Source of the DNA: Arctopsyche grandis
Lineage: Eukaryota; Arthropoda; Insecta; Trichoptera; Hydropsychidae
Reading direction: 5' to 3'
DNA length: 64,000 nt
NCBI RefSeq assembly: GCF_051622035.1
Contig: NC_135357.1
Span: forward strand, 31,600,191-31,664,190
The stretch's first letter is position 1. The number at the start of each line of letters is the position of its first letter. The position numbers were made by a program, and so were the translations under genes. The notes below the pieces were generated by a model. It had not been told where the DNA came from and searched no databases. It saw only the letters and a program-made list of their open reading frames with translations. Below are positions 3,401 to 60,095 of the stretch, piece after piece.

Positions 3401-6400
3401 TTAGTTTATTTTTTGTTGTTTCATTATTTTAGACTAGCAAAAGTACTCAACTCCGTCAGAAATATAATAAATATAATTTGAAGCTATAATCCATCTGCTG
3501 TAGGAACACGGTTAGGAAAAACGTACTGCTGTCCCTTACAACGCTTCTTGACCAATAGCATTTTTTTATCTTTTATTCAATCAATCAATGTACACAATAT
3601 ACATATCAATAAATCATATATACATATAAGTTAATACATAATTCGAAACCATACCTGACATCTATGGTCAGACATTGCAAGCATCGTATACAATACGATC
3701 AATAAACATCGCATTCAAGACGATCAATAATGATTTATATACAACAATACGAATTTTATACAATAAACATCCACATAAACATCTATGGAGAGAAACCCGG
3801 CAAATCCTGAAATATAACACAATAACTCAAGATTTCGCTAGAGAAAGCCAATTTTGTAGGAATCGTTTCAATGGAGATCAGAAAAATTGGCAAAATCTGA
3901 TAAGAAACGACCGATCTGGTTACAAACCAAGGTCTGGCCATCAGCAACCAGTGTGACTCGGACTCATAACCACACTGACCATCGCATGACCTGCCTACCA
4001 CTATTTTATGCTGCTGGTTAACATTATATTTATTAGCACATAGTAGAAATGCAATTGGTCAAGATACGGTGTAAGGGACAGCGTGTACGTTTTTCCTGTG
4101 CTTTCCTACACGAAGCAACTATAAGTCACATATGTTAATTGTCGATTTCACTTGAACAGTCTTACCAACCCCCTATCTAAATCATTAGAATGGGCATTGG
4201 TAAGACTGCGTCTATGTCTATCAAAATGGTGTCCAGTCAAAAGCGCTCGGTACAAAAGCGCCCCGACGTAACCACCCCGACATAACATCTCTACGGTCGC
4301 TTTCCTTGTGTCTGAGAGTCATGACTTTCCTTTCTTCTAATTTCCATAATACGGCCCGTCACAACCCTGTCGCCCTGTCCTGGTCAGTCCATCTTGTTAG
4401 GGATTGTCCTTTTCCTCTGTTTCCCTCAACGAAATAGCCGCGAGGCGTCAAAAAAACGGAAGACAAAACCGCGAGATACAAGCAAAGCGTGCAAAATCGT
4501 GCCAGAATATATGTTTTTTTTTTATTTTATATATATACCAGGAAGGCCTTACAGGTAAACCCTAATGCGCCTTCCTGACCAATTACAAATTTACAAATTA
4601 CAATTCAGCATTTTTTTTATATAAATCACTGAATTACGAGACACTGTAAAACTCGTAAATCAATGAGACATCTATTAATTTGTACACAAACTTATTTATT
4701 GTACATTAATTAATAACAAATTATAGTTGACATATTGTATAGGAGGGATTTTTAGCCAATTTTTTTTTTTTTTTTCGGGAACCGTTTCAACAATGAAATC
4801 AGAGAGAATTGGCAAACTATGATAGGAAACGATCAACCTGAAGTCACAAATCCAGGTCTTACCAACAGCATAGTCTAAAAAATCCATTTTCATTCGAGGC
4901 TCGTGCCCAGGGATCGAACCCGCCGCCTCTCAACGCTAATCGGAAGCTTAAGAGGGCTGTACACCCGAAACCTTAATTTTGTTACCGTTCCTTTCTTCGA
5001 TATATATATTGAGTGTATGTATATATTGAGTGAATGCGACAGTTGCGCTTCGACCAGATAAAACGTATTTTAAATTGACAAAATCGAGGTTTCGTATTCT
5101 ACTATTTTCACCTCCAAAACTGGACCAATTTTTAAAAAAAAATCATCATCGGTATGAAAAAGATACTTTCTGTGCATCTATCGGCGTATTTTTTTAAAAT
5201 CGACCGTTAAATAAGCACGCTGGACCCGTTTCGAGGGTGTAAAAAAGAGGCGATTTTATAGATGTTTGGCGCCTCCTATGTCCTATAAAAAATAATTAAT
5301 CAAAAAAATAAAACGATAGATGCACCCCAATGGTGGATATCCATAGCATATTAAAAAATAATTTCTCTAGTGACATAATTGAGGAAGGGAGAAGTATAGT
5401 ACGTTTGTATGGACAAGGTGCTGCTGTACAGCCCTCTTAACGACCGAGCTATGCTGCTGGCTGAAATATATGAAAAATCATTTTAATTTCGACTTTATTT
5501 GTAGAATTTTAGCGGTTTTGTCTCCAGCGGCTTTGACGCCTCGCGATTACATCGGGGTACCATCAAAATAGCATTAAAACATAATATATGTATGTTTTTT
5601 ACACAAGAATTTGTAACTCAATGGATCCTTTTGCTAGTAGTTCATAAATAAGTTTTGGCAAACACCGTTTGAAACTCAAAAACAAATAACCATAACTTAT
5701 TTTAATTCTATGAATCAAAGGATTGCTTCAGTTGGTTTATTATAGCAATGAATGTATCAAAATCGTTTTAGTATAAAAGACGACGATGCAATCATTTTTA
5801 TTATAAAAATGATATAAAAACGTTGATTCGTTCGTCTTGTGTGGTCTTCTTAATGGACGAGACCTTTAAGAGGACTGAATTTAAATTTGACTCAGACTTC
5901 CTTGAAGAATGCTGATTGAAATTCCTAAACGCTCTCCGCTTTGAAGAAAAGGTCCTTTTGTGTCCCAATTTTTGTTAAAGGTCCCAATATGTCCCCCCCG
6001 TCATACCGGATTATCCTTCCTTCACGTCTGACTTCTACATATTAGATTCGCTCCAATGCAATGCAACGTCTAGTCTTTTCTTTTGGAATTCCTCAACCTC
6101 CCTGTTACAAAACTGCCAGCCTGAAAACGTGACCTGACAATCACGCAACTCTCTGGCTCCTAGTCCTTCTTTTGTCCGACTTAAATATGTAAAATTTTGA
6201 TTCCAGAACCGTCTCACGCAAACGGGTCATCAAAGTGGAGATGGAAAAATGCAGAAACAAACTAACCAAGTGTTTGAAGACCAAATGCGGCCACAGTTCA
6301 GATCCAGTTTGCGGCACCGATGCGGCCACATATCAAAATCTCTGTCAATTGAAAGTCGCCACATGCCTGTGAGTACTTACATAGCATATTTAATTCACAC

Positions 6401-9400
6401 GACGCCTTTCACTCGGAAGTTGTGATCAAAAAACCGAGATAAATGCAAAGTACTATATTTACATTTAGAGTCGCCACAGCATCTCCACAAGTTTTTATCA
6501 AATTCAACATTCACTCTGTGTTATTCTTTTAAATGATCTGTAAACTATATTTTAGACGGAAACACATCTCTGTAAGCTCATACAAAAATAACATGCGATT
6601 ATTTAGTTTTTTCTGAGGTTCAAGCGTTTTCTCATATACTATGCACATAAGTAAAATTTCTCAACCATGTACAGGTGTATGTATGTACATACATATGTAA
6701 CGAGCTCGTTTTCTAGTTATAGCGTAAACATTTTTTTAAATATAAATGAAAAGTCCTATCGTCTCAAATTATTTAACAATGGATTCGTAAAAAAAAATGG
6801 TTCTCAGAACGCCATTGTATAAAAATTTATATCAGAAAATTTTAGCTCGTTTATGAATTCGTTTTTGGGACGATTAACCAAACGTACATACATACATATG
6901 TACATAGGTATGTATATAAGATTTCAAAATTTCATCAAGTTCCATTATGATAAAGAATAAAAAATCGATTTAAATATAAATGATTTTTGGCGATAGTATT
7001 TTGATAAACGAGTTCAACTTTTCATATTATGGAAATACTACTTGTTTTACCCGGCTTCGCTCAGTATTTGTAATATAAACAGCTTAAACATGGCGAATCT
7101 AATAGTAAATGTTTATTTGGTTTTTTATTAAATTTATTTGAAACGAAAAAAAAATATATCGAATCGTCGTCATATAAACTTTAATTTGTTTTCGATGCTA
7201 CCAACCAATATTATATACTTAGATACAAAGTGTCTTTCGAAATTATATACATATACATATTAGATGTATTTTTGATGAAATTATTACTTTGTGAATTAAA
7301 ATAATCCTCCCTCGATATAAGTTTTAATATAATCACATTAAATAGAAGAAAACGAGCCATAATTGCACTTAATGGTATTCATAACATCACAACAGTATAT
7401 GAATTTTTAGTTAGCTGGATATTTGGCCGAACGGACATTTGTCAGGCTGACATGTAACCAAATAAAATTATTAATTCCGTAAGTTTATTTCCGATTTGAA
7501 AAAAAATTGAAAAACAGAAAAATTCATTGCAGAAAATTATTGTATTTATTATATTATAATGTAATTTTATGTTTAAAAAGTATAAAAATAATCGTAAAAA
7601 TCATAATAAAAATAAATTATAAAAGTGGATGAAAAAAATAGTCTTTTTACTATTTGCTAAAATATGAGCTCTACAGAAAAACCTTTCGAATAAACTTTAT
7701 AGACAACAATATTTTCTATTAAAAGCCACCAATGCTTTTGTTGTAAAATCGCAAAATTTGATTAAATCAAATTTTAAATATAGCAGCTTACGTATTATCT
7801 TTCTATTCCGGCTAATTTGCAATTATATTCAAGAAGTAATTTATTATTTGTAATTATATTCAACAATTAAATAAGTTTTCACTTTATATATTAAACATAA
7901 GATTTAGAGTGAAAATGTTAATAGATAATCATCTGTTAACCGTGTGATTCATACAAAGACAGAAAAGATTTATACGTATGATTTAAATGCGGTAGCGATA
8001 AGTCATGCTTTTGACTGTTCGCTTGCATATTCTTGTTGATCAATGAATCAATGCGAGAGAAAAAGACAGCTATATTTTCGTAAGCTATTGTTTTCGTCGC
8101 TTTTGGCGCGTGGCTATTGATTTATGCAGTCGCCTGTTGGCCTTACCTATGTTCGTTTGCTTGTCGATGCTTGTCGTTATTTTTTAATACAAAAATAGTC
8201 AAAAACATGCTATAGGACTAAAACTTTTTTATGTTGATGTGTAAAATGATTAATAAGATATATATTGAACCCATTTGTATTGAGAAAGTTGTATTTTCAG
8301 TAAAAAATACTGAGGTCTTGAAAAAATACTCGACCCCGGTTCGGGACACTCGTTCGATCTCGACGCTCCGTCCTTCAAAGGTTAAAATTAAATTTAAACA
8401 GATAAAAATTTCATTCCATCAAATGTCCGGTGGCCGAAATTTTCAGTACAAACCTAAAAAGTCAATTTTAATTGTGACAGTCATTAATAAATAAATAATA
8501 CAGAACGGTTGTAGAAATACGAGACAATTTTTTTTGGATCGTTATACGGGGTCCGTATAAGTGCCGAGTCACATTCGCGATTGCATTTCCGAAACGCATA
8601 AATTGAATCCGGAATTTTTATTACTCGCGTTTATTTATTTTTAGAAATAATTTATTAGCATGCCATCGACAGAGCCGCTTAGCTATGTAAATTCGCCAAG
8701 GACACTGCTCTTATAACGTTTATTAATAATGTACATAATTAATACGACCTCACGTTGAGTTGTGTGTTTTTAAAAATGTTACATACGGAGTGTTGAATAA
8801 TGAAACTAAAATTATTTATATACTTGTGTCGGCAATTAACGGGTTGCGAAAATCGCGTGTGTCGAATGACGTTGCGTGAGAATTACCGATACAAATTCGA
8901 ATTGTAAAATGTCGCCAAATTGAAGAATAGTTTTAATTTCATTGTATTTTTTTTGCTAAGCTAACCTTGCGTTTATTTATTGTGTTCTTTTCGTGTGTAG
9001 GAAAGGGATACAGATGGCACATATGGGAAATTGCACTGAAGTCTTGAGGCCTACACCGTGTCCCAGCGGTTGTGAAAATGAAGAAACTCCAACCCCAGTT
9101 TGCGGATCGGATGGTAACGTTTACAGGTAATTTTTTTGTATTTCAAGGTAACTTTTTAATCCTTGCTCTTTTCATTTCTTTGTTTACATTCATATTTATT
9201 ACGCTATAAACTGTACGAACTGCTGATTAATCAGTGGAAATTTTTAAAATTTTAAGCCCCCGTGTTTGCTTGAATTATTGTATACAATTTGCATTTTTTT
9301 CCAAGGTCACATTTTATTTTTATCGACTTGGTTTTATGTCCAGGTTTTGAAATTTTCAACTTATCTTAGTCAAAATTGTTGTGATTTTTTTTTTAATCTT

Positions 9401-12400
9401 TTCCAATTCTTCTTAAAATATTTCATAGAATCTCCTGATTTTACATCTTATTTATCATCTATATATATAAAATTGAATGTCTGTGTGTGTGTGTCTCGAA
9501 TAGGCTCCTAAACCACTGAACCGATTACGATGGAACTTTCAGGATTTGTTGTATGCATGTTCCGGAAGATTACTGTGAAAAAAAACGGGAATAAACATCT
9601 TAATAATAATATTCGTAATTACGATTTTATCTATATATGTAAAATTGAATGTCAATTTTATTTCAATAAGTCCAGAATCTCGGAAAAGCAGAATAAACGC
9701 CACCAGTATTTTTAAACGCAAAATATTTAATTTTTTGCGAAATATTTCTTGAAATGAAGAAAAATGGACTTACGTATAAAATATTCACCAACAACCTCGG
9801 TCGATGTTGAACCCTAGTGAGCTTTTATCGATAAACAGTCCTGCAAAATCGAATAAAACCAAAAAAAATATTTTTATTCAATATTTTGCGCGGCATTGTC
9901 CGAGTTGTCAGCGCGGAACTGTCGGAGCGGGTTTTTCGGCGCGGGATTGTCGTGCGCAGCTTTGTCGAGTCTCCGTCTATTGTTAACTTCGTAGAAAACC
10001 TTTTAATTGCTCTCTCGCACTGAGCCTTGTTGGAATGTGTATTGCTATTTGTCATTGCCCTAATGACCAACCTTCCTATTATTATAATATACAAATAAAT
10101 AAACTTTCTTCGATACGTTTACAATTCATGGTATGTATTATTCCGATCACCGATGTACGAATATCATCACAACACAAAAATTATATATAACGACTATTAA
10201 AATGCACAATTAAAACTCATACACAATAAATTCAATTTCAAAATAAAAGTGCATTTTTCGCCAATAATACAAAATAATACAATACTAACCAATAATACAA
10301 TTTTTTTTCAATCGAATATGTACACTCGCCTTTACAGATCACTGCAAAGCGACGAATATATGTACTTATACAGATACAATACAGTAGTATGTACAATTAA
10401 TACAAGCATTTTTATACAATGCGAATTCATACAAACATCATCCACAGTGACATCTATGGAGACACTTTTGCAGCATTTTATTATATAAATTAGCCAACCA
10501 TAAGACTAACTTGAGATTTGCAAGACAGATTGGAAATGAGATGCCAATTTACAGGAACTGTTTCAATGAAAACCAGAAAAATTGGTAAACTCTGAAATAA
10601 AACGATCGGCCTGGTCTCACAAACCAAGAACTGGCCAACAGCCACTAGTGAGAATCGAACCGAGACCACTCCTTTCGAAAGTATAATATGCTAACCACTA
10701 GCTCTCGAATACAAATTTCGAACTTTTCACTCGTTATAAATACTTTTTGTCGAACTTTGACCTCACACAGGTCACTCGTTATAAATACTTATTTTAAATT
10801 TTGACAGCATCGTTCAAATGGGTACATAATATTAAATTTATTACCAATCGAGTTTACATGACGGACTTGTTGCTTTGAAGCATTAAAGGGCTTTCTTTGT
10901 CTCGATTGCGACGCACACAAAATAGAACTTTGAATATTTCATGACCTGTTAACGAAAATCCTTCGGCGATAATTAAATATTAAATATTGACGGTTGATCG
11001 CGAGCCGTCCATGAAATTACAAACCCAGTCTATTTCCAACGTATCGAACTCGTACTCATACATAATATATGGACTCGTTAAAGATTGAAAGCTCTTAAGT
11101 GCACAATATCGAATATTCTAGTATTCGTTTTTTTTATTACCGTCGTAATGACGGCTATTAGGTCAATTATAGTCAGACAATTATTGACGTATGTACCGTG
11201 AGAACAACTGTCTGTGTCGCGTACAATAATTTGAAATTAGATATATGTATGTAGAAACGTCGTAAGTCATACAATATGTATGTATGTATAATATACTAGT
11301 ATTTTTAGTAATTATGTTTGTACTATGTAGTATCAAAAGTTGTACTATTTTTTTAAAATTTTGCTTATTAACCTGGCGGCAGCTCTTGACGTATCCTTAT
11401 GACGTAAATTGTATTTATAAAAGTTTTTTCATTGTTGTTTGTTTTCATATATAAACATGCTATATTTTTAATTCATCTCATATTTCTAATACATTCGACT
11501 AATGGTGCTTACGGACTAAACCAACGACGATTTTGGGCCAACTTTTTAACCAGCAGTAGCGTACAAAATATCGAAATAAAAATTAAATTTTAAAATTGAA
11601 ATTAAATATCAAAATCAAGCTAAAGAGCGAGATTGAGCTAAAATTAGACCATCGTTGATGTTTTGAATTGCAAAAATGTTTTGAATTACGACGATACCGC
11701 ATTTAAAACCAGAGAAATATTATAATTTCTCTGCGTACGAGCGAAAAAAAATATTGTTAAAGTCGTCACGAGATGTTACTGTATTTCCACTTGGATGATC
11801 GATAAAAAAAAACAATTCATAAAAAAACGCGGTGTCGGATGTCGGTGATTTGTCAAAGGGTTTTTTTTTCTTTCGTCGAAATAAAATTAATAATCACACA
11901 TTATCCGATAAATTTTACCTCTGAAATGATTTAATTACTTGATTTATTTCGACGAGAGAAACAATTGAAGAATAAAAAAATCCGTTTGATGTGACCGACA
12001 ACACCCCGGGTTAGCAAAAATCGTTGGATCACCCATACTAATACATGATATATTCTCAGTAACTGCGCATTACGAGGAAGTAAAAATAATAATTCTTTGA
12101 TTTTTTTTCGATCTTAGTGCGTATCTTCGTAAGTCAAAACATCTTCGACAAACAAAAGTCGAGGATTACCTGTATGTGATTGTTGATGATCTAATTTTAG
12201 GTCAATCTCGAAAATTTATTTAAATTGGGCATGTTCTGTTTTAACTTTCAATATTTAATTTTAATTTTAATATAATGATTATAATTTTATTTTGATACTT
12301 GAATTTAATTTTAATATAATAATAATAGTTTTAATTTTGATATTTAATTTCAATTTTTAAATTTAATTTTTATTTCGATATTTTGTACGCTACTGGTTTT

Positions 12401-15400
12401 TAAAGTTGGCCTGTGGGCCGTTCGTTGGCTTGGTGCGTACGCACCATTACTATCATGAAGGTCCCATTCATATCCCTTATATTTATTTATTTTACACATA
12501 TGTACATATATGAATGTATATGTATATGGTACAGTAAGGGCGAAATCACACAGGGAAGAACGGCACGTCGTGTGCAAGGCTCCCCGCTGTGGATGGTCTC
12601 CTACATTTCTTCAAGTATGGGATACATCGTTATCGATCATTGTCAAGCAAGCATACAATTTTACCGAAAACACTCCTGAGGGTCAATTTGGGGTGGGCGT
12701 GCTGGGCGTTCCATGAATATGTGAAAGGCACGGCCCATTTTATTCGCATTTATAAAAATATCTAAAAAAAAACCACGTGCCCCGTGCATCGCTGTGTGTT
12801 TTCGCCCTAAGAGTGTCAAATCTCGAATCAGTATTCACTGACAAGTAAGTGTGTACACTAGCTTTGGTTTTTAGTTAAGGCTTACGATGCTAGATTCCGC
12901 AGATACTCTTACTTGACAAAGTATACACTGACGCGCAAATTCATACACTAGTACATAAATCTGTTAACGAGTGAAATTTGAGTGGTTTGACAGCTGACCG
13001 GAGTTTGACGTTGCTCTTCCAATGAATGTTATGCTCAAGAATATAACTGGTTGTGTTCAAATAACTAATTTATTGTTGAATTGATAAGAAATATACCATT
13101 ATAAACAAGGTTAAATCCACTTTAGATGTTTTACAATTACATACATACGATTTTACTTACGATTTTAGGGTAGGCAAATTCAAGATGTGCGTACATACGT
13201 AACGTAAATACGTACGTAATCGTAATCATCGATAAAATCGAAAAAAAAAAATTGATTCCGATTAGGATTCAAGCCTATGACCTACTAGTAAAAAAATATT
13301 TTTATTTAAGTACTAGCTGAACCCGGCATTCATTGCAATGCCACAATAACGCATGCAATTCCCGTTCCCGTTCCCGTTCTCGTTCCCGTTCCCATTTGTC
13401 GGAAAAATGCAGGCAGCGAACACATTTGAAATTATTCAATTGTATGTTTATTTTACCCTAACAACGCAGGTCGCGACGCAAAAACATTTAAAATTATTGC
13501 GTTGCAATGCCACTCATTCCCGAATGCAAGCTTCCCGGAAATGCATACAACAAATCCTGAAAGTGCCACCGTAATCGGTTGTATGGTTTAGGAGCCTATA
13601 CGAGACAGACAGACAAACAGACATTCATTTTTTACAAACCTCTTCTTACTTCAGAAACAATTTGGTCGTGTGACAAAGTTTGGGTTCTTATCCGATCGTT
13701 TTCAAACTTTGCCATTTTACTCGGTTTGGTCATCAATATGAGTCGAAATGACGTCCGCCATTACGATGGTGAAAAATAGTCGTAATAGACAAGTTTGAAA
13801 ATATTCCGTCATATTTCTTCTTGACGTCTATCGTCCGAATTGATCGTTCAGATTGTTCGTTCAGTTTTTTCGTTTTAGCCTCTTCTTACTTTATATTTTA
13901 TTTTTGTTTTAATTTTTTTATTTTTCAATTAATCATGCACACTCGCCTAACAGATTGCTCCAAAGCGGCGAATGTGCTAAACAGATTAAGAATCGATAAA
14001 TTATATAATACATATATTATTAAATACATAATTAAACAAATGGTCACATTATTTATTATGCAACAATACGAAATATTTATATTTCAATAATCATCCATAG
14101 AGACATCTATGGAGAAAATCTGGCGAAACCTAAGAGATAATAATAACTCAAGGCTTTTCGCAATAGAAAATTGGATAAGAAAGCCAATTTTACAGGAATC
14201 GCTTCACATCAGAAAAATTGACAAATTCTGATAAGAAACAACCGACTTCGACAAACCGAGGTCTGGCCAGCAACGAAACTCCAGTGGGAAGCGAACTCGT
14301 GACCCCTAGCACGAGGGAATACAACACTAGACCACGCTGCTGGTTACTAGAGCACGTCGTATCCCTTTTCGCCGCCATCTCGCTATTTCAGATTTTAATT
14401 GTTTAAACGCCTATAACTTTTTCTTTTTGCACTCTATATTTTTTTTTATTTTATATATGTACATAGATTTACGTATATTTATACACATTGCAGATCTGAA
14501 TGCGACATGAGAAAGGCAACGTGCGGACAACACGTGGTGGTGGCTGGAGATGCTCACTGCAGGAACACGGCGAGATGTGGTTCCCCCTGTCCAAAAGGTG
14601 GTCCAGTCGTATGCGGATCCGACATCCGCTTCTACAGGAACGAGTGCGAGATGAAGAAGGACAACTGCGGGTCAGTACACGTGTGCATGCAAAGTTTCGC
14701 AATTCTCGCCGCTAGGTGGTGCGCGAGTGCACCGATTGGCGAAATAACCCCATCAACTCACCGCACGTTCCGGTGACACTCCGTGACGATCGATTTGGAC
14801 GTGCGTGACAGCGCCAGATCGCGTGCCAATCGTCGCTGACACGACAGACACGCCCAAGCGGTTTATCAAAACGTAACGAAATGTTTATCCGAAGCTTCCG
14901 CAGAGTCGCCGTAAGCGAAACTGAAACGATAATCATGACATGGTTAACTTGGCTAATTCAATCAGGGCGATGTGATAGCTCTACTAGTCTACTGATACAT
15001 TTTCGACACGTCGTGTTTTTGACATGCGTGCCATTGTTCGTATACGATATACTACATATTAAATGTTTTTCCAACTATATCATTGCTTATAGCGGGTTGA
15101 CACGATACGAGTGCACTCAGACCGAGTCCGCTAAATGAATCACTCGGACGTTGCCACGTTACGAGTAACGTCCGAGTGACCAAATTAGGGCACACGGTCT
15201 GAATGCAATCGTACTGTGTCAACCCGCTATTATATATGTACAATCAATCTTGGGACTATGTAATGTCTATCACATAGATCGCTCACTATTTTCTAACTGA
15301 AGGATATTCGGCTTTACTCTAATTGAATAATTCTTTTGGCACACTGGCAATACTGTATATTTTCTAATTGATGAACTACGGCTTTTTTGTTGTCCTAATA

Positions 15401-21395: not shown

Positions 21396-22174
21396 TGTTG
21401 CGTAGGGGTGGGTGGAGGATCCAAGTAAAAGGCCAACAGTCGTATCACAGCATTTATTGATGATTCAGGAGATACACGCACGGTCACTGCTCCGTCCAGA
21501 ATGAATTATATCGCCTACGTACCGCCTTATAAAGGGTAGATCTCTCAGGACGCCTAATCTGTTTACCTGTTGTATAGTCACGTATTCGGATATGTATTTC
21601 CACGACGTTGGGTCTCCCCGTACCGATTCTGAGAAATTTATTTTATTTTTTATTTTTATTTTACATATATACCAGGAAGGCCTTACAGGTAAATCCCAAT
21701 GCGCCTTCCTGGCCAATTACAAATACAAATACAGCATTTTTTATTATAAGTCGTTGAATTGCGAGACACTGAAAAAACTCGCAAATTAACGAGACATCTA
21801 TGAATTGTACATAAATTTTTATTGTACATCAATCAAATTTTTCAAATAGTGGTGACATAGTAGGTAGGAAGGATTTTTAGCCAATTTTTTTTCCGGGAAC
21901 CGTTTCAACAATGAAACAGAGAAAATTGGCAAACTCTGATAGGAAACGATCAACCTGGAGTCACAAATCCAGGTCTGACCAACAGCATACTCTGAAAAAT
22001 TCATTTTCATTCAGGGATAGAACCCGGCACCTAACTAATAACGGTCATTGTTTAGCCTAAATGCACTTAGAGTCCAGATATAATCTTTGGAAGTAAGTGC
22101 ATGCATTTAGTTAATCCGATAACAGATATCCGTTGGTCTAAGTGCAATTCGCTCAATCCACGGCGTACGTAACA
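21396..22174. mobile_element. Solo LTR A, split by a SINE
   Basis: It starts TGTTGCGTAGGGGTGGG and ends CGTACGTAACA, with the 4-bp direct repeat ATAG on both sides. The interior matches LTR B base for base over long stretches (GGATCCAAGTAAAAGGCC, CACGGTCACTGCTCCGTCC). A SINE interrupts it. TG...CA ends and a 4-bp duplication fit a Gypsy- or BEL-type LTR left by recombination. Confidence 0.75.
21637..22031 (-). mobile_element. SINE with tail type A inserted in solo LTR A
   Basis: The antisense tail ACCAGGAAGGCC ... GCGCCTTCCTGG, the body, and the B-box complement GGATAGAACCCGG are present. The interrupted sequence is GAGAAAT / AACTAATAACGG, which is continuous in LTR B. The head is truncated. 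Confidence 0.75.
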
Positions 22175-25129: not shown

Positions 25130-26033
25130 TATTTTATTTTATTTCAATCAAACATGTAAACTCACCTTAACAGATCGCTCCAAAGCGACGAGCTTACTAA
25201 TACAAACACAATACAATAATACAATTAATACAAGCATTTTATACGATGCGAATGCATACAAACATCATCCACAGTGACATCTTTGGAGACATTTTTGCAG
25301 AATTTTATTACAGAAATTGGCGAACCTCAAGATGCTAAATAACTTAAGAGGGCTGAACAGCAGCGCCTTGTCCATACAAACGTACTTTACTTCTCCCTTC
25401 CTCAATTATGGCACTAGAGAAATTATTTTTTAATATGCTATGAATATCCACCATTGGGGTGCATCTATCGTTTTATTTTTTTGATTAATTATTTTTTATA
25501 TGAGCTAAGAGCCGCCAAACATCTATAAAATCACCTCTTTTTTACACCCACGAAACGAGTCCAGCGTGCTTATTTAACGGTCGATTTTAAAAAAAATACG
25601 CCGATGGATGCACAGAAAGTATCTTTCTCATACCGATGATGAAATTTTTTTAAAAATTGGTCCAGTTTTGGAGGAGAAAATAGTAGAATACGAAACCTCG
25701 ATTTTGTCAATTTAAAATACGTTTTATCTGGTCGAAGCGCAACTGTCGCATTCACTCAATATATATATATTGTCGCATTCACTCAATATATACATACACT
25801 CAATATATATATCGAAGAAAGGAACGGTAACAAAATTAAGGTTTCAGGTGTACAGCCCTCTTAAGGTTTGAAAGAGATATTGGAAAGGAAATGCCAATTT
25901 ATAGGAACCGTTTCCGAAAAATTGGCAAACTCTGAAAGGAAACGATCGACCTAGATTCACAAACCAAGGTCACTGCGCTTGAAAGCATAATATACTAACC
26001 ACTAGCCCACGCTGTTGATCACGAGCCGCCCCT
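25130..26033 (-). mobile_element. SINE with tail type B, split by a MITE
   Basis: The antisense tail GTAAACTCACC / TTAACAGATCGCTCCAAAGCG / ACGAGCTTAC sits at the left. Its arms can pair over 11 positions including wobble pairs. The body is interrupted by the MITE at 25348-25860 and resumes at GGTTTGAAAGAGATATTGG. The head ends near CCCACGCTGTTGATCACG. Confidence 0.75.
25348..25860. mobile_element. piggyBac-type MITE, copy 2
   Basis: This is an inverted copy of the element at 4952-5436. Ends GAGGGCTGAACAGC and TGTACAGCCCTC are flanked by TTAA on each side. Internal blocks such as AATTTAAAATACGTTTTATC match copy 1 in reverse. It is 513 bp and non-coding. Confidence 0.8.
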
Positions 26034-46685: not shown

Positions 46686-46862
46686 ATGATTAATGTACAA
46701 TTCATAGATGTCTCGTCAATTTGCGAGTTTTCAGTGTCTCGTGATTCAGCGACTTGTCTAATAAAAGTGCTGCATTGTTTGTAATTGGCCAGGAAGGCGC
46801 ATTGGGGTCCACCTGTAAGGCCTTCCTGGTATATATGTAAAAAAATAATAATAAAAATAAAC
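46686..46862 (+). mobile_element. SINE 3' end with tail type A
   Basis: It carries CATAGATGTCTCGTCAATTTG, then CCAGGAAGG, the loop CGCATTGGGGTCCACCTGTAA and CCTTCCTGG, followed by an AT-rich tail. The stem is perfectly paired. The head is missing. Confidence 0.75.
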
Positions 46863-47134: not shown

Positions 47135-50100
47135 TTAGTGATGCACGTCTTCCGCTGTCGGTTTTCCATAAGTTTTCTCCCACCGCTCTACGAATTCCTT
47201 CTTCCTCTGTTCTCGGCGAGCGAAATATTCAGGATATTGCGCTTTCTCCAACGGATGCCAGTGATCGAGGACCCAATCGGGTGGGATCACTTCTCTCTCG
47301 AAAGCCACGCCGCCAGGACTGTGCGGGACTGAAAACATATTGTCGATCAATTAAACATGCTACATGCCGACTAGCATATTTAATTTGTGTGCGGTGCTAC
47401 TTTAGTATGCGGTCTACCGTAGCATGCGATCTACCTTTGAATCGCAGTCGACTATTTTTTTTTATTTGTATCGTAGCAACGAAATGTTTATTACAATTTT
47501 ATTTTTTCCTGCCGCTCCATAATGTTTTCGAAGCATTTCTATCAAAATATCGTCAGCAGATACATATCTCTTAACCAAATCTTAAATTAATAGGGCCAAC
47601 CTTAACTTAACCTAACCTATCCTGACCCTTAACCGTTTGCCCGCGGCAAACAAAAGTCTGTAGCGCGGCTGTCTTCCATAGAATTTCTGAACTTTGCACG
47701 GGATTTTGAGCCTTATATGCGCCTATTTCAACTGTTTTAAGGTTCAAAATTGGTTGAATATATTACTGAGAGTTGAATGCCATCTATTCAATTTGCTTAA
47801 AATGAATATATACCAGTCAAAATTAGTTTTTTGTGGAACCATACTGAAACCTCGTTTATGTGACGTCACGTCTGTTGAACATTGGCGACGATACGTCTCA
47901 ATTGTATGAAGAATGATTATTTGACATTTAAGCCAAAACTACAAGATATATTATGTATTTTATTGTTTAAAATAATACTTTATGTATAAATTAACATATC
48001 TGATTATTTGAGTAAATATTAAAATCTGTATTTAAGGTCGAAAACTGGATTGCCAAATTCGCGAAAAAGGTGCCGCTATATTTATTGCCGCGGGCAAAGG
48101 GTTAAATAAATGAGTGTTGGCTGCTAAGGTATGTTTTTTATATGAAAATATTGATGAAATAAAACTTAAAAAAAAAATTATATCTTAGCAGCCAACACTT
48201 ATTTATTTAAGGGTCAGGATAGTTTAGTTTAAGTTAAGGTTGGCCCTATTCATATAAGATTAGGTTATTAGGGTCAGTATTATTCAGTGAGACCGCATAT
48301 TAAAGTAAAAATGTGAAGGTAGATCGCATACTAAAGTGGATATGTGAAGGTAGACCGCATACTAAAGTAGCACCTTGTGTTGCTTACATTTTCTAGGAAT
48401 GCCATGTTGTCTCTGGAACAGTTCTTCTTCCCCATCCGTTAAAAATTTCCTCGCTTTAATCATATCGTGCTCGTTTTTGTTGGCATCGAATCGAGCACGG
48501 AGCAGTGTAGCTTGATATCGGTATAGATGGCTTAATAAAATAAAAATTATATTAAAAAATTGTATTACATACGTTATTTTCAAAAGTATTTCAATTAATA
48601 TGAATGTTTTAGTATTTTCAGAAAGATTTAATGATCATGTTTCATAAGTATGTACAATATTATTGAGGTTTTATTTTATTTTACAAGCATATATATACCA
48701 AGAAGGCCTAACAGGTAAACCCTAATTCGCCTTCCTGGCCATACAAAAATTTTAATAAAGCATAATAGAGACATATATGGATACATTTTTGATAAACTTA
48801 TATATTCAGAGCATTTTTCATATGAATCGTCAAATTTTTGAGACATTTATGGACAAATTTGCAGTATATTTTAGGAATTCGAGACGCTGAAAACTCGAAA
48901 ATTGTGAGAAATGGGTAAAGGTTGCCAATTTGTAGGAACTGTTTCAATTAAGCGAGCAGTTTGGCTTAATGGTAGCGTATATGTTTAGCACCATGCGATC
49001 ACTGGTTCGATCCGCCAAAACTGCTGGTTAGATTTGGAGGTTTTGTGACTCCAAATCGATCGTTTCTCTATCAGAGTTTGCCAATTTGATCTGATCATTG
49101 TTGAAACGGTTCCTCAAATTGGCAAATAAATCCTTTCCTGTTGTCACAAAAAATGTTATGTATAATTATAAATAAGAGTATAATTTGTAAAAATTATGCA
49201 CAAAATCTAAATCTATACATGTCTCAATAATCATCTGTATTTATTCTGTGTATAAATTGTAATAATTGTGCAAAAAATCTAAAATCCATAGATGTCTCAA
49301 TGGATTAATTATGTACTTAATTAATTGTTAAAATTAATTCAATGGTCCTTTCGGCCGTATATGTATATATATGTAAAGTAAAATGTCTGGCCGTATATTC
49401 CATGTATGGTTTCGAATTATGTAATGATTGTGTATTGAAAATATATATAATTTCTTGATTTGTATAGTACACTCGTCACATTGTAGCGATCTGTAATGAC
49501 GAGTGTACTTTGATTAAATAAATTAAAATCAGATAAATTGGTAAAATCTGATAGGAAACGACCGAGCTGGAGTCACAAACCAAGGTTTGGCCAGCAGCAA
49601 TCTGTGGGACTCGAACCCGTTACAACTATGTTCGAAAGCATATATGCTAACCATTAGTCCACGCTGCTGGTTGAAATCTGAGATGAAATCAATATCACAA
49701 ATGATAATCATACTTATACAGTGAACGAAATTCTATAATTATATTAACCAGCAGTATGGCTCGGTGTTTGCGTTTATGTTTAGCACTGAGAGATTACTGG
49801 GTTCGATCCCATGCTAATTTTTAATAATGCTGGTTAGATTTGGATATTTGCGATTCCAAGTCGATCGTTTCTTATGAGAGTTTGCCAATTTAATTGATTT
49901 TCATTGTTGAAACGGTTCCTCAAATTGGAAAAAATCATCCTACCCACTACCACAAATATCTGAATTTGATTTATGCACAATATGTAAAAATGAATGTACA
50001 AGTCTATAGATGTCTCAATGGATTGATTCATTAATTAATTGTTAACTTCGTGTTCTTCAGCTGAAGCCTCGCGAAATACAGTGGTTTATGTAATAAAAAT

Positions 50101-50767
50101 GCTATAATGTTTGTAATTAATTGTCTAGGAAGGCGCATTGGGGTCTACCTGTAAGACCTTCTTGGTATATATCTATGTAAAATAAAATAAAATAAATGAG
50201 TTTTTCATTAATAACCTTTCAGTATAAACAGCACTCCTTTAATAATTTTAAATTTTAACATATACATTGGACTAAGATACTCCACAAATGTACGTCGAAT
50301 GATCAACAAAACGAAAGGCAATCAATCAAATGCACATAAGAATTGGGTCACATATGCGGAACTATTTGTTTGAATAGTCACTACTTTTACAAGTAGGTGC
50401 AAAATTTCGGACTAACAAGCCTTTCGACGTGGAAATCTATACATATATTTTGGTAGTGTTTTTTTGTTGGAAACCTGACTCGAACATATAATGAACGATT
50501 TGTCAAATGTGGTCGTCGCCATTGTAATCGAACGAATGACTTGTTTCCGAAGCTGATACCTTCTGTGACTTCGACACGTCCAATGTGCGGTATAGCGATA
50601 GTGAGCATGTGTTGTCAAATGAGTGTTACGTAAGTGTAATAATAGTGTAGAAGAGATGAGAACCGATTGGACATAAAGGACTCGGCATTCCTCAAGGCAC
50701 TCTTGTAGAGTTGGCAGACCCTGCGCTGGTGGGAGACCAGACCCAACACTGGCAGCTTCACCGACAT
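47135..50767 (-). CDS. NDUFB9: NADH dehydrogenase 1 beta subcomplex subunit 9 (complex I LYR protein)
   Basis: Three minus-strand exons: 50767-50664 (ATG start), 48530-48388 and 47328-47135 (stop TAA), with GT-AG splice sites and agreeing phases, giving 146 residues. Exon 1 carries SHQRRVCQLYKSALRN, the LYR-family helix (LYK here, as also in mammals). Exon 2 has LLRARFDANKNEHDMIKA and the EEELFQRQHG segment. Exon 3 has PHSPGG, PPDWVLDHWHP and EKAQYPEYFARREQRKKEF. All match NDUFB9 (B22) in order. The protein is an accessory subunit of the mitochondrial complex I membrane arm and binds acyl carrier protein through the LYR motif. It is shorter than the human 179 residues, mainly at the C-terminus. 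Intron 1 is filled by SINEs and intron 2 by a fold-back element. Confidence 0.94.
47393..48374. mobile_element. Large fold-back element filling NDUFB9 intron 2
   Basis: Left arm blocks GGTGCTACTTTAGTATGCGG and GGTTAGG-like AACCTAACCTATCCTGACCC are complemented on the right by GGGTCAGGATAG and CCGCATACTAAAGTAGCACC. The centre, CCTGACCC TTAA GGGTCAGG, is split by piggyBac-type sequence. A second inner hairpin pairs GAGTGTTGGCTGCTAAG with CTTAGCAGCCAACACT. The right end lies 13 bp from the exon 2 donor. The flanks show only an imperfect TTGTGT direct repeat. Confidence 0.7.
47633..48101. mobile_element. piggyBac-type MITE nested in the fold-back element
   Basis: Ends CCGTTTGCCCGCGGC and GCCGCGGGCAAAGGG are inverted repeats flanked by TTAA at 47629-47632 and 48102-48105. 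The interior is non-coding. Confidence 0.7.
48664..50203. mobile_element. Cluster of four SINEs in NDUFB9 intron 1
   Basis: 48664-48945 is antisense with tail type A. 48951-49525 is sense, with a head at TTTGGCTTAATGGTAGCG, a B box GGTTCGATCC and tail type B whose arms TACACTCGTCA and TGACGAGTGTA pair perfectly. 49526-49682 is an antisense head and body. 49746-50203 is a sense full-length copy with tail type A. Pol III A- and B-box-like blocks are recognisable in the sense copies. All lie in the first intron, opposite or parallel to the gene. Confidence 0.75.
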
Positions 50768-51103: not shown

Positions 51104-52890
51104 TGTGGGAATCTCGTCACATCCATCAAAACATTTACTGCGACGCAGAATACATTCCCAAAACCAGTCGAAGCACACCTGCAGTCATTAAACTAAACTC
51201 AAGCGGAACGGTGCCGAAACCTTCTAGTAAGTTCTACCCCTACAAGTCGAGTGGAACAAAACTGGTCGAAGCACACCTGCAGCCATTAAACTGTAGGAAT
51301 CTCGTCATCGTCATCGTCATCAAAACATTCGAGAATATTCCGCAACAACAAACTACATTCCCGAAAACCAGACGTCGCACACCTGTAGCCATTATATTAA
51401 ACTCAAGCGGAACGCCCCTACCAGTCGAGTGGAACCAAAACGGTCGAAACACGCCGCCACCATTAAAATACATCGAGCGGAACGGCGCCAATCGTTCCAG
51501 AAAATTCTACCCCTCGACAAAAGAACATTCCTCGCTTACGCATCAACAAACCACCACCATGGGTCAGGCGATTCCAGAAACACTATAAAAGGAGGTACAA
51601 CCCAAACAACGCGAGTCGACCCACAGCAGCAAGCGCCGACACACAGCAACAGAGAGTCGACATCCAGCTCCTGACCAGCCACCACTTCACTACGCGGACT
51701 TGGAAGATCAACCAGCCGAATGAGCCAGCAACACACTGCCGTATCCCGAGACCTTCCGAACATAGCCGAATGCCGAGCCAGCGACACTCTACCGTATCCA
51801 GAGACTAGCCGAACATAGCCGAATGCCGAGCCAGCGACACTCTACCACATCCAGAGACCTCTGAACGACATACTTTTACCAACAATTAATCATACTTGTG
51901 TATACGTGTTACTACCAAATAAATACCATATTCAACATACAGCTGTATTAATACCGAACACAGACGAACCTGTCTACAATACATGGCGGACTGGTGGTGA
52001 AGAAGACCTTCACAACCAAGACTAAGTCCCCATAAAACTAACATCGAGCGGAACACCCCTACCAGTCGAGTGGAACCAAACCGGTCGAAGCACACCGCAG
52101 CCATTAAACTACATCGAGCGGAACGGTGCCAATCATTCCAGAAAATTCTACCCCATCGACAAAAGCACATTCCTCGCATACGCATCAACAACAGCCAGCA
52201 ACCAGAAACACTATAAAAGGAGGTCCAACCCAAACAACGCCAGTCGACCCACAGCAGCAAGTGTCGACACACAGCAGCAGACCAGTCGACATCCAGCTCC
52301 TGACCTACCACCACTACACTACGCGGACTTGGAAGATCAACCAGCCGAACGAGCCAGCAACACACTGCCGCATCCAGAGACCTTCTGAACATAGCCGAAC
52401 GCCGAGCCAGCAACACACTGCCGCATCCAGAGACCTTCTGAACATAGCCGAACGCCGAGCCAGCAACACACTGCCGCATCCAGAGACCTTCTGAACATAG
52501 CCGAACAACGAGCCAGCAACACACTGCCGCATCCAGAGACCTTCTGAACATAGCCGAATGCCGAGCCAGCAACACACTGCCGCACCCAGAGACCTTCTGA
52601 ACATAGCCGAACGAACGAGCCAGCAACACACTGCCGCATCCAGAGACCTTCTGAACATAGCCGAACAACGAGCCAGCAACACACTGCCGCATCCAGAGAC
52701 CTTCTGAACATAGTCGAACGCCGAGCCAGCAACACACTGCCGCATCCAGAGACCGCTGAACGACATACTTTTGCCCAAATATTCTAATACCTTTGTACAA
52801 TATTGAGGCAAACAATAAAACTTTATTAAAACAAGCACAACAGTGTTTCGTTAGGCTGGGATACGGTCAACACATCCTACCCCGCCTACA
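51104..52890. mobile_element. Two tandem LTR-like units inserted in a fold-back element
   Basis: The insert starts TGTGGGAATCTCG and ends CCCGCCTACA with GATC duplicated on both sides, as expected of an LTR retrotransposon remnant. Two TATA-like promoters, CACTATAAAAGGAGGT, lie at about 51584 and 52209, and AATAAAAC polyadenylation-like signals follow at about 52814, so two LTR units are fused. Sequence is shared with the 40-kb cluster. No gag or pol frame is present. Confidence 0.75.
52350..52765. repeat. 53-bp minisatellite, eight units, inside the LTR
   Basis: Units begin GAGCCAGCAACACACTGCCG and contain CATCCAGAGACCTTCTGAAC and ATAGCCGAAC. Most are 53 bp and one is 54. Two to three diverged units occur in the 40.4-kb LTR and two at 51.72-51.86 kb. 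Because 53 is not a multiple of three and no antisense frame contains a stop, three overlapping antisense open frames of 132-309 codons arise. Confidence 0.9.
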
Positions 52891-53288: not shown

Positions 53289-54113
53289 TTTTTTAGCCAG
53301 CAGTATGGCTTAATGGTAGCGTGTATGTTTAGCACTAAGTGATCAGTGGGTTCGATCCGCCATACTGCCGGTTAGATTTGGGGGTATTTGTGACTCCAAA
53401 TCGATCGTTTCTTATCAGAGTTTGCCAATTTTATCTCATCATTGTTGAAACGGTTCCTCAAAATTAACAAAAAATCATCTTTCCTGTTGTCACAAATCTT
53501 CTGTATTTATTGTGTGTATAATTTGTAAAAATTATGTACAAAATCTAAATCCATAGATGTGTCAATGGATTAATAATGTAATTAATTAATTAATTAATTG
53601 TTATTTCGTGTTCTTCAGCTTCTGTAAATACAGTGATTTATGTAATAATAAAATGCTGCATTGTTTGTAATTAATTGTCCGGGAAGGCGCATTGGGGTTT
53701 TCCTGTCAAGCCTTCCTGGTATATATCTATGTAAAAATAAAATACGATAATCATCCGCAGAGACATCAATGGAGAGAAACCCGGCAAACCTTGATATATA
53801 GCAGAATAACTCAAAACTTGCGAGCGAAATAGGCGAGGGAAAGCCAATTTGGCAGGATCCGTTTCAATGAAAATCAGATAAATCGGCAAACTCTGATAGG
53901 AAACAACCGACCTGGTCACAAAACAAGACCTGGCCAGCAGCAGCCAGTGGGACACGAACCCGTAACCACACTGTTCATAGCTAGATATGCTAACCACTTA
54001 CGTCTCGTAATTCAGCGACTTGTATAATAAAAATGTTTGTAATTGGCCAGGAAGGCGCATTGGGGTTACTTGTAAGGCCTTCCTGGTATATATGTAAAAA
54101 ATAAATAAATAAA
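53289..54113. mobile_element. Three adjoining SINE copies
   Basis: 53289-53742 is a full-length sense SINE: head AGCCAGCAGTATGGCTTAA, B box GGGTTCGATCC, body, and tail CCGGGAAGG / CGCATTGGGG / CCTTCCTGG, then an A-rich end. 53743-54000 is an antisense head and body. 54001-54113 is a sense tail type A with TAAATAAATAAA. This is the best reference copy in the window. Confidence 0.8.
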
Positions 54114-54639
54114 AAATATACACCAGGTCTTTAAAGCAATCTCACAGAAAAAATCAGTGCCTGTCGAAAATCAGGTAAAAGGAAATATGAATAATATTAA
54201 AAAGTTATTAATTTAAATTCAAAAGTACTTATTTGCAAAAAAATAATGCTGCAATGACATGATAGGTTAATTCTATGTACAATGAAAATGCGTCATTGTG
54301 GTTAAATACATATATACATATGTATATGTAGAGACATAAAAAATGTATTCAAAAGAGCATATAAAACATACAAGAGTAAACGTCATAAGCAAAAAAAACT
54401 TAACTTTTAAAATTAGATAATTAATTATAAATATTTCAAAGTAATAAAAAATCATAATCAATACAAAAAAAACATCTGACTATTGATTCCAATATTTTTG
54501 GCACAGAAATACTTGATTTTGAATTAAAGACTGCGAAAACAAAAATCTATAAAAATTGCACATTTTTTGTTGCTGTGTTATTGACAATAATTGCACAATT
54601 ACAAATTATTATTAAAATGTCACAAATTCAAATCTCAAA
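54114..54639. other. No feature seen
   Basis: AT-rich intergenic sequence between the SINE cluster and the LINE remnant. Confidence 0.4.
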
Positions 54640-55150
54640 AGGGGACAACGACCTTGAATCTGAAATAACATTGCAATTTGTCAAGCTGAACAGTAGGCGA
54701 TTATTAATAGACCATTCACCTAGAAATCCTCACATAGACTCATTCACATAGAAGTCATCCTGCAAGCCCTCGAAGTCGGAATGATCACTAATTATTCTAA
54801 AAATCTTCAAGTCGTCAGCAAAAATGAGAAATTCAGAGTGATTGATCGACATACCAATTTTATTAACAAACAAAATAAGCAATGATGGACCTAGGTTGAA
54901 CCCTGTGGTACACCAGATGAAGCGTGATATTCATCCGATAGATAAATACAAGAAACATACTGCTTTCTGTTCGTTAAGTAATCACTAAAAAGCCTTGTAA
55001 AAAACGGACTAAATTATCAGCTGTTTCACTAGAACTATCCCACTGGCGAACCTTAAAGTATGGGTTCTGTTTTTTGCTATAATAATATTAGATAGATCAA
55101 AGAGCGACAAATGAAAAGATCGAAGAATGTCGATATAGTGACAAGCCCTG
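54640..55150 (-). pseudogene. Non-LTR retrotransposon reverse transcriptase remnant
   Basis: On the minus strand the sequence encodes FSDYLTNRKQYVS, then SSGVPQGS (the RT motif before the active site), and, after a one-base frameshift near 54892, LGPSLLILFVNKIG and FLIFADDLKIF with the catalytic A-D-D. This order is diagnostic of a jockey/CR1-type LINE. The reading frame is broken upstream as well, so it is a dead fragment. Confidence 0.85.
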
Positions 55151-59414: not shown

Positions 59415-59990
59415 ATATGTCTGGCTCTATTATATGGTCACTCTATCAAGATATTTTCTCCCTGATGTTGGAACGAGCCCAAAGAGTATTCCTCAGATTT
59501 TTATATCTGACGACTTTTTTTTTTTTGAGAAATATTTTATAAAATTCTATAAACATCTATCCTAGAGAAGCTAAAATTTTTAGCCCCTGAAAATCATAGT
59601 TTTGCGAAAACGTGAGATCTTGCTACCCATAAGGGCTCGAACAAACATCCCCTCTCGAGAGCTGTTAACTTACTGGCACATTCTTTGGGTCTTTTCCATC
59701 CCAGTTATGTTGAGGTGGTAGATCACATTTTACTTAGCACGATATTATTATTATTTCTATTGCATACTTTATATATTTTTTATTCTCTTGTTTATAAATA
59801 GGTTTTTGAGCTCTTTTTCCTATTATGCTGTACATTAACATTAGAATAATATAATACTTCAATTACTAACAAAAATATAATAAAATTGTATAATAGAAAA
59901 TGATCAGTAGATTAGTGGCTATTCAAATATGTATATATAAGATGTATTGTGTCATTATTAAGTAATAATAAAAAGCATTTAAAAATCAAA
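59415..59990 (+). pseudogene. LINE ORF2 C-terminal remnant and 3' UTR
   Basis: Encodes SIIWSLYQDIFSLMLERAQR and VFLRFLY, the segment just after the reverse transcriptase core in jockey/CR1-type elements, followed by a degraded stretch ending near LLTYWHILWVF. The 3' untranslated part (GGTTTTTGAGCTCTTTTTCC ... TAAGTAATAATAAAAAGC) is the master for the reverse fragments at 1-170, 1277-1460 and 18025-18175. Confidence 0.75.
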
Positions 59991-60027
59991 ACTCTCTTGT
60001 TTATGCTAATCGTAGTTGTATTCTAAC

Positions 60028-60095
60028 CACAGTGACGCATTGGGGTTATCTGTCAAGACACTGTAGGATTGATTTTTAAAATAAAATAAAATATG
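60028..60095 (+). mobile_element. SINE/LINE tail type C
   Basis: CCACAGTG, loop ACGCATTGGGGTTATCTGTC, then CACTGTAGG and a TAAAATAAAATAAAAT tail. The loop matches tail type A but the paired arms are of different sequence. No SINE body is attached. Confidence 0.65.

Follow-up and report, generated by a model that had tools for sequence, protein, structure and literature searches.

The hairpin at positions 53679 to 53719 of the 64,000-nucleotide stretch of DNA analyzed here, the whole of which we call the window, is one copy of a conserved RNA element that ends the LINEs of one clade; that a single conserved RNA element was involved had already been proposed in a preliminary description of this DNA. 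The element is very probably the 3′-terminal RNA recognition hairpin, of the stringent type, of this EN-RT LINE clade, borrowed by tRNA-derived SINEs. Parts of this reading are supported by sequence comparison, namely, the place of the hairpin behind LINE reading frames, covariation of the stem between families, and exchange of 3′ modules. Being conserved and ending LINEs of one clade, the hairpin is likely to serve as a recognition site of the LINE reverse transcriptase, the role suggested previously and the one to which its place at the clade LINE ends points. In the mechanism that we propose, the LINE ORF2 protein would read the tip and would require the outer stem only as paired; with the tip read and the stem paired, ORF2 would copy the RNA of its own LINE as well as that of any SINE bearing the same tip, and reverse transcription would start at the (AAAT)n or (AAAAT)n repeat that follows the outer helix. 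LINE stems would drift through paired changes, SINE bodies would acquire new tails as 3′ modules, and the A and B SINEs would be cross-mobilized by this LINE clade.

The hairpin at 53679 to 53719 (plus strand; tail A, subtype A2) matched the letters and coordinates reported earlier exactly. Its 5′ arm CCGGGAAGGC (53679 to 53688) and 3′ arm GCCTTCCTGG (53710 to 53719) enclose the tip GCATTGGGGTTTTCCTGTCAA (53689 to 53709); it scored 51.0 bits with covariance model R1 (E = 6.9e-14), and its minimum free energy was −23.0 (RNAfold; z = −4.09). R1, whose training set of 25 tails included nine from the window and which was built on a first version of the inner fold that was later replaced, found 14 matches in the window, 7 of tail A, 4 of tail B, 1 of tail C, 1 of D2 type, and 1 doubtful. 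The tail positions reported earlier thus held for seven A, four B, and one C copy, except that the A copy at 48.7 kb (48690 to 48742) was found by R1 on the minus strand. The remaining A hairpins lie in SINEs at 46785 to 46837 (plus; also found by the descriptor scan; minimum free energy of −26.5, z = −3.69), at 50121 to 50172 (plus; subtype A2, in a SINE at ~49.77 to 50.18 kb, also found by the descriptor scan), at 4530 to 4582 and 21664 to 21716 (both minus), and, in what by inspection is apparently a 5′-truncated SINE copy, at 54043 to 54094 (plus). Tail B hairpins of SINEs were matched by R1 at 10313 to 10364, 13930 to 13980, and 25149 to 25200 (all minus; the last copy contains wobbles and one double change from C-G to A-U) and at 49464 to 49515 (plus). 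The tail C hairpin (60023 to 60074, plus) forms the 3′ end of a LINE remnant. The D2-type hairpin (1923 to 1974, minus; E = 4.3e-10) was absent from the earlier list; its tail type is that of the D2 LINE in locus L004, and it is probably the tail of a truncated LINE copy. A weak R1 match at 54241 to 54305 (minus; E = 0.0027) begins like tail C and is then interrupted; it sits downstream of a LINE RT fragment (54649 to 55013) on the same strand.

A strict descriptor, consisting of the inner motif and at least 8 of 11 stem pairs, occurred at 9 places in the window, whereas 100 dinucleotide shuffles averaged 0.01 such places and never held more than 1, which excludes chance for the window hairpins. 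By itself, the 10-mer CGCATTGGGG was not enriched in the window when up to 2 mismatches were allowed (31 versus 24.9 expected; 13 of 100 shuffles reached this number). Rfam returned no match at its gathering cutoff. In 20 stretches of 10 kb over contigs C1 to C4 (200 kb), 23 R1 matches were found; if this density holds throughout the assembly searched (475.7 Mb, 189 contigs), there are roughly 55,000 copies genome-wide, an extrapolation in which R1 was partly trained on those same stretches.

When 25 tails were aligned by sequence and folded with RNAalifold, the fold common to them rose from an outer helix through an internal loop to the inner helix UGGR:YCUG, which is capped by 4 to 5 nucleotides (nt). 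The outer helix has ~11 bp and a family-specific sequence; the internal loop is roughly 4 by 4 and GCNU/UNAR-like; the cap is often GNNA or GNNNA; and a short (AAAT)n or (AAAAT)n repeat follows 3′ of the outer helix. The plain loop of the preliminary description was therefore abandoned, since the tip is itself structured (internal loop, UGGR:YCUG helix, and cap), and so was the inner fold TTR:YAA with a TG bulge on which R1 had been built, superseded by UGGR:YCUG after RNAalifold. About 20 nt of the tip are common to ten stem types. The inner R:Y pair was A-U in 12 of the 25 tails, G-C in 12, and G-U in 1 and was broken in none. Folding of 12 single tails with RNAfold returned the same plan or a near variant in 10; the minimum-energy structures of the C tail and of the B copy at 25.16 kb were different folds. 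The LINE G stem is imperfect (6 bp, a 2 by 2 loop, and 3 bp) and little better than shuffles (z = −1.65), and the SINE B′ tail was mildly more stable than shuffles (z = −1.91). On the LINE-only alignment, RNAalifold recovered the outer helix in part only (8 pairs).

The expectation that LINEs of the genome would carry the same 3′ stem-loop was borne out in copies chosen by protein alone. The tail was present after the open reading frame in 9 of 9 copies of LINE E and in 5 of 5 copies of LINE G, each set taken from at least 150 places. For LINE F, 12 of 20 copies, again from at least 150 places, had a sense-strand R1 match (E ≤ 0.026) on the 3′ side, the side examined, with a model that included one F tail (L018); 8 had no sense R1 match, and one of the 20 loci (L089) had an antisense match. 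The LINE F query carried two wrong residues at its start, and most matches begin at residue 3 or later. Three loci left out of these counts (L085, L092, and L093) look tailed by eye. RT-like frames were also found upstream of several tails, and a C-terminal profile detected 8 distinct loci (E < 1e-4), 7 of which had the motif 158 to 386 bp downstream; the sequence of the eighth (L027, plus strand) runs for 73 bases beyond the match and is then cut off. This association is suggestive only, because the loci were mostly noticed through their tails: the profile was made from L001, L011, L018, and L025, all noticed in that way and matched by construction, L030 was fetched by its tail, the window case is tail C, and L004 alone was not chosen by its own tail.

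The frames of LINEs E and G encode 972 and 960 amino acids (aa), respectively, and both contain RVT_1 and Exo_endo_phos domains (Pfam); in the PDB, the clade LINEs matched proteins of L1 and R2 along with other RT proteins. Protein identity among LINEs E, G, and D was 43 to 46%, versus 26 to 31% to the LINEs of L032/L033 and of L027. R1 gave no hairpin match in L032/L033, one LINE family outside the clade, and the hairpin was also absent from the L027 LINE, likewise outside the clade, which ends in another hairpin. The pairing of a C-like tail at L027:1229- with an upstream RT frame was dropped, since the LINE in question has a different hairpin at its end. On the minus strand of L027 (~8430 to 8710 of the reverse complement), this LINE ends in a G/C-rich hairpin, CTTGGGC...CCCAAG, and (AAAT)n; the genome may thus contain a second system of recognition. 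LINEs G and E are recently amplified: the places listed for LINE G (at least 150) were all 98 to 100% identical over 52 aa, many with 960-aa frames, and 48 of at least 150 LINE E places were identical over 81 aa. The D-tail locus L031 also has, on the minus strand, a 457-aa frame with CCHC knuckles that is LINE ORF1-like.

Tail C, described earlier as a SINE tail, turned out to belong to a LINE. Upstream of it lies a decayed C-terminal coding remnant (59423 to 59741, plus strand) recognized by protein matches, with a C-terminal peptide match at 59562 to 59741 (E = 1.7e-5) and 46% identity to LINE D at 59423 to 59506 (E = 4.5e-4), and this peptide remnant ruled out a SINE at 60036. At ~59.8 to 60.0 kb, the 3′ end of a LINE that we label jockey-like lies inside the 3′ untranslated region of the tail C LINE remnant; by comparison, this insert (59800 to 60000) resembles L032/L033 and ends in TTTAAAAATCAAAA.

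The place of the hairpin at LINE and SINE ends also bears on an unlikely alternative, in which it is kept for formation of the transcript 3′ end, RNA stability, or binding of a host protein and not for recognition by ORF2. Both in LINEs and in SINEs, it directly precedes the terminal A/T-rich repeats, and the outer helix is visibly constrained mainly to pair, as that alternative would have it. LINEs and SINEs, however, are normally transcribed by different polymerases, so that a signal for reverse transcription is more likely to be common to both than one for processing, and the element tracks one LINE clade and is absent from the two other LINE families examined. Moreover, in zebrafish, ORF2 reads L2 hairpins that are built in a similar way, according to the parts of the source considered here (PMC4176376). 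Recognition by ORF2 remains the reading that we follow.

The hairpin at 53679 to 53719 ends a SINE (53290 to 53745, plus strand) that consists of a tRNA-like head with A and B boxes recognized by inspection only, a shared core, the A2 tail, and an A/T-rich end, flanked by a 9-nt repeat, AAAATACGA. A second SINE (48948 to 49515, plus strand) was found by R1 and alignment to have the same head and core but tail B. The two elements (48.95 to 49.51 kb and 53.29 to 53.74 kb) matched over 286 nt at 86%, with an additional, overlapping match of 150 nt at 80%, after which there was no match. Since the B and A2 bodies are alike and then diverge, the tails have been exchanged as 3′ modules. The earlier statement that stems are swapped thus holds for the whole 3′ module exchanged between these SINEs but for nothing beyond that. 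The A and B boxes of the window SINEs were seen by eye; ARAGORN found no tRNA in the window, and when 7 window SINEs were screened for target-site duplications with a crude test for exact matches, 1 had them. A core, TCGATCGTTTC.TATCAGAGTTTGCCAATTT..TTGTTGAAACGGTTCC, at 53380 to 53476 of the window and in other SINEs, is common to SINEs with different tails, and this shared body may be a conserved central SINE domain.

Sequences flanking the stem were compared between SINEs and LINEs in 42 tests in all. The after-stem flank of SINE B′, a consensus of three copies, matched LINE G and LINE C better than nearly all shuffles (as good in 0 and 1 of 1,000, respectively). Its before-stem flank gave weaker matches (28 of 1,000 for LINE G and 202 of 1,000 for LINE C), and the SINE B′ stem is unlike the LINE G stem. 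The flanks of SINE B compared with LINE G showed the same trend (42 and 36 of 1,000). SINE A flanks had no consistent LINE match, the best of 14 tests being 13 of 1,000 (LINE E). The terminal repeat points in the same direction as the flank link between B/B′ and LINE G: the longer run was AAAAT in 16 of 26 B/B′ tails (reverse in 6, ties in 4) and in 3 of 3 C/G tails, and AAAT in 21 of 24 D/E/F/H tails. The 19 A tails were mixed (AAAAT in 9, AAAT in 6, ties in 4).

Of 18 exact A tails preceded by unusual sequence, none had clade-LINE coding sequence upstream (E < 0.1); 17 had SINE sequence upstream, and 1 (L044) had antisense SINE sequence only. Likewise, none of 20 B tails, from at least 25 places with the exact B tip, was preceded on its own strand by coding sequence of a clade LINE, and all 20 had SINE sequence upstream (only 34 nt in L055). 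LINEs with stem A or B may still exist beyond these 18 and 20 candidates. One B tail locus (L057) had an antisense clade-LINE match (E = 0.017). In another (L071:641-751), a B-tailed SINE is directly followed by a perfect match of 22 aa to LINE D, so that the SINE was seemingly inserted in a LINE D copy. The lack of stem A or B from every LINE searched and of a consistent LINE match for the A flanks would suit a scheme in which SINEs A and B depend on a LINE from a different clade, their tip being only a relic, and the clade studied here mobilizes only itself. We consider this improbable, because the A and B tips are those of the clade and because the repeat unit of B/B′ and the after-stem flank of B′ are common with LINE G; we therefore retain cross-mobilization by the hairpin-bearing clade as the preferred reading.

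Covariation of the stem between families was assessed in an alignment (A1) of 25 hand-picked tails with a visible hairpin, a choice that raises the pairing percentage. In A1, 91.7% of cells were paired, compared with 68.1% after shuffling and at most 49.3% after sliding; cells with changes on both sides numbered 102, compared with 31.5 after shuffling, and the covariation score was 0.674, compared with at most 0.239 after sliding. The slid control preserves relatedness without undoing the hand-picking, slid and re-dealt controls correct the selection only partly, and the shuffles of A1, like those of the LINE-only alignment (A4), do not preserve relatedness. On two stricter measures, the A1 values were weak: 10 pairs had a both-sided change versus 8.6 in shuffles (reached by 72 of 500), and 34 further pair types were found versus 30.8 (reached by 29 of 500). 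Between families, then, pairing is retained while the stem sequence varies, with these two measures weak. A4 omitted the 8 F loci (of 20) in which the model had no sense match, which raises the pairing percentage, and contained one row (L030) cut at wrong coordinates and missing part of the 3′ arm. It had 26 both-sided cells versus 7.8 in shuffles, a score of 0.297 versus at most 0.105 after sliding, and 8 pairs with a both-sided change versus 4.8 (reached by 7 of 500 shuffles); its further pair types were at shuffle level (18 versus 17.6; reached by 246 of 500).

The several stem types described earlier were confirmed, but there are more than three. We compared ten, among which B and B′ are nearly alike and the family B stem is a majority consensus that occurs exactly in 0 of the copies collected. 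Within these ten, the arms of the same type paired at 98 of 110 positions, whereas re-dealt 3′ arms averaged 68.8, and 98 pairs were reached by 0 of 100,000 re-deals. For the seven LINE stems, 66 of 77 positions were paired, and 91 of 100,000 re-deals did as well. Pairing was poor in type H (only 5 of 11 positions), and stems A and B, when crossed, formed 4 of 11 pairs. A series of LINE stems, E3 (GCCACAGTGAC/GTCACTGTGGC), F2 (GCCATAGTGAC/GTCACTATGGC), and F1 (GCTATAGTGAC/GTCACTATAGC), differs at each step by one both-sided change, with the rest of the 11-bp stem constant. The E3 stem (L079 and L080) is fully paired; E1 (L072, L073, and L078) and E2 (L074 to L077) have one stem mismatch each, and these mismatched stems look like intermediates.

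Changes within families gave a different picture. Among 35 A copies, double changes were paired in 1 case and unpaired in 1, compared with 0.54 paired expected, and among 25 B copies, they were paired in 4 and unpaired in 3, compared with 4.56 expected; in neither family was there an excess of compensation. The single-copy compensatory changes reported in the preliminary description were thus not above chance. One of its examples, the copy at 25.16 kb, is among the four paired double changes in the 25 B copies, and the other, at 53679, is a one-sided change giving a G-U wobble; since double changes within families are at chance level, such examples are no evidence. The null result fits constraint on the source elements with free decay of dead copies; it is expected under neutral decay of copies, yet it is not itself support. 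The notion of a stem free to drift accordingly holds between families (covariation score of 0.674 versus at most 0.239 after sliding; series E3-F2-F1) but finds no excess within them.

These patterns also bear on two further alternatives. That the hairpins are inverted repeats or cruciforms of SINE and LINE ends acting at the DNA level (e.g., as targets or in recombination) and without a function as RNA is very improbable: nine window places do have at least 8 of 11 stem positions paired, but the stems contain G-U pairs, the inner helix has conserved U-G and G-U pairs that would be unpaired in DNA, and it is the arms that vary while the tip sequence is conserved. That the tails are unrelated and their loops alike by chance, the null given in the preliminary description itself, is extremely improbable, for although stem A differs from stem B (crossed arms form 4 of 11 pairs) and the bare 10-mer is not enriched, a tip of ~20 nt is common to ten stem types, the full descriptor exceeds shuffles ~900-fold, the 25-tail model detects the hairpin downstream of LINEs that were selected by protein alone, LINE stems form the series E3-F2-F1, and the ten types pair far better with their own arms than with re-dealt ones.

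Recognition of a 3′ hairpin by ORF2 has a precedent in zebrafish. As reported in the parts of Hayashi et al. (2014; PMC4176376) considered here, ZfL2-1 and ZfL2-2 need a 3′ hairpin for mobility and their ORF2 reads the loop; exchange of the stem was tolerated, at about half the rate for ZfL2-1, and loss of pairing abolished mobility of ZfL2-2. The comparative pattern found here is what a rule of a loop that is read and a paired stem that is exchangeable predicts. Furthermore, by our reading, the region between EN and RT in LINEs E and G contains two tryptophans at a spacing of 19 residues, comparable to W325 and W344 of the zebrafish element in that source. The present case differs from the portrayal there in that the variation is natural and within one genome, the tip comprises an internal loop and UGGR:YCUG, and the clade is not assigned to L2. 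For plant L1-clade LINEs and monocot SINEs, the consulted portion of Ohshima (2013; PMC3747384) reports a conserved loop and flank with a variable, compensating stem, which resembles our element in that a conserved loop and variable stem are common to LINEs and SINEs. The loop there is UCU and the flank CGAG, and the LINE clade is a different one; by reading, CGAG follows the stem in none of our ten stem types, and UCU occurs only in the D cap. A conserved loop with a variable compensating stem in LINEs and SINEs is thus already known from plants; the system described here is rich in stems and in young LINE copies.

In the eel, UnaL2 and UnaSINE1 share a hairpin followed by short repeats, and an internal loop in the stem matters, according to the sections of PMC5135761 consulted; the loop there is GGAUA and the repeat TGTAA, whereas our tails have GNNA-like caps and AAAT or AAAAT. 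In insects, HaSE1/HaRTE1 (PMC3272025) and PxSE5/PxLINE1 (PMC8010984) involve SINEs that have a tRNA or 5S head and a 3′ tail resembling that of a LINE, and tail exchange is mentioned in PMC8010984; in the passages of these two papers used here, the partner is assigned by 3′ sequence similarity and no variable-stem hairpin is described. The openly accessible literature searched contained no description of this tip. Five tail strings were also searched for in paper texts; 48 papers contained one or more of them, and among the 20 matches listed, titles were unrelated except for one on insect enhancers.

A tentative extension of ORF2 recognition, which we regard as possible but rather doubtful, is that recognition by the clade is confined to the upper part of the hairpin (internal loop, UGGR:YCUG, and cap), with the outer stem as a near-neutral paired spacer, and that SINEs are copied by several LINE families simultaneously in a many-to-many network. 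If this is true, SINEs can carry stems seen in no LINE, in contrast to the usual arrangement of one SINE with one partner LINE. In the sources consulted, the choice of RNA by LINEs and the switching of partners by SINEs are addressed by few assays (e.g., in zebrafish, eel, and silkworm) and by plant sequence comparison. This genome represents a natural mutagenesis of the handle: young copies are numerous, at least two LINE families (E and G) have been copied recently, and ten stem types carry one tip. The set of hairpins suggests which letters to test and predicts cross-mobilization, and it offers a structure-based route to LINE/SINE pairs that plain 3′ sequence identity misses.

Elsewhere in the window, positions 51389 to 52755 contain direct repeats, including five matches of a 206-nt unit that are partly 53 nt apart; these repeats overlap a repetitive frame of 326 aa on the minus strand.
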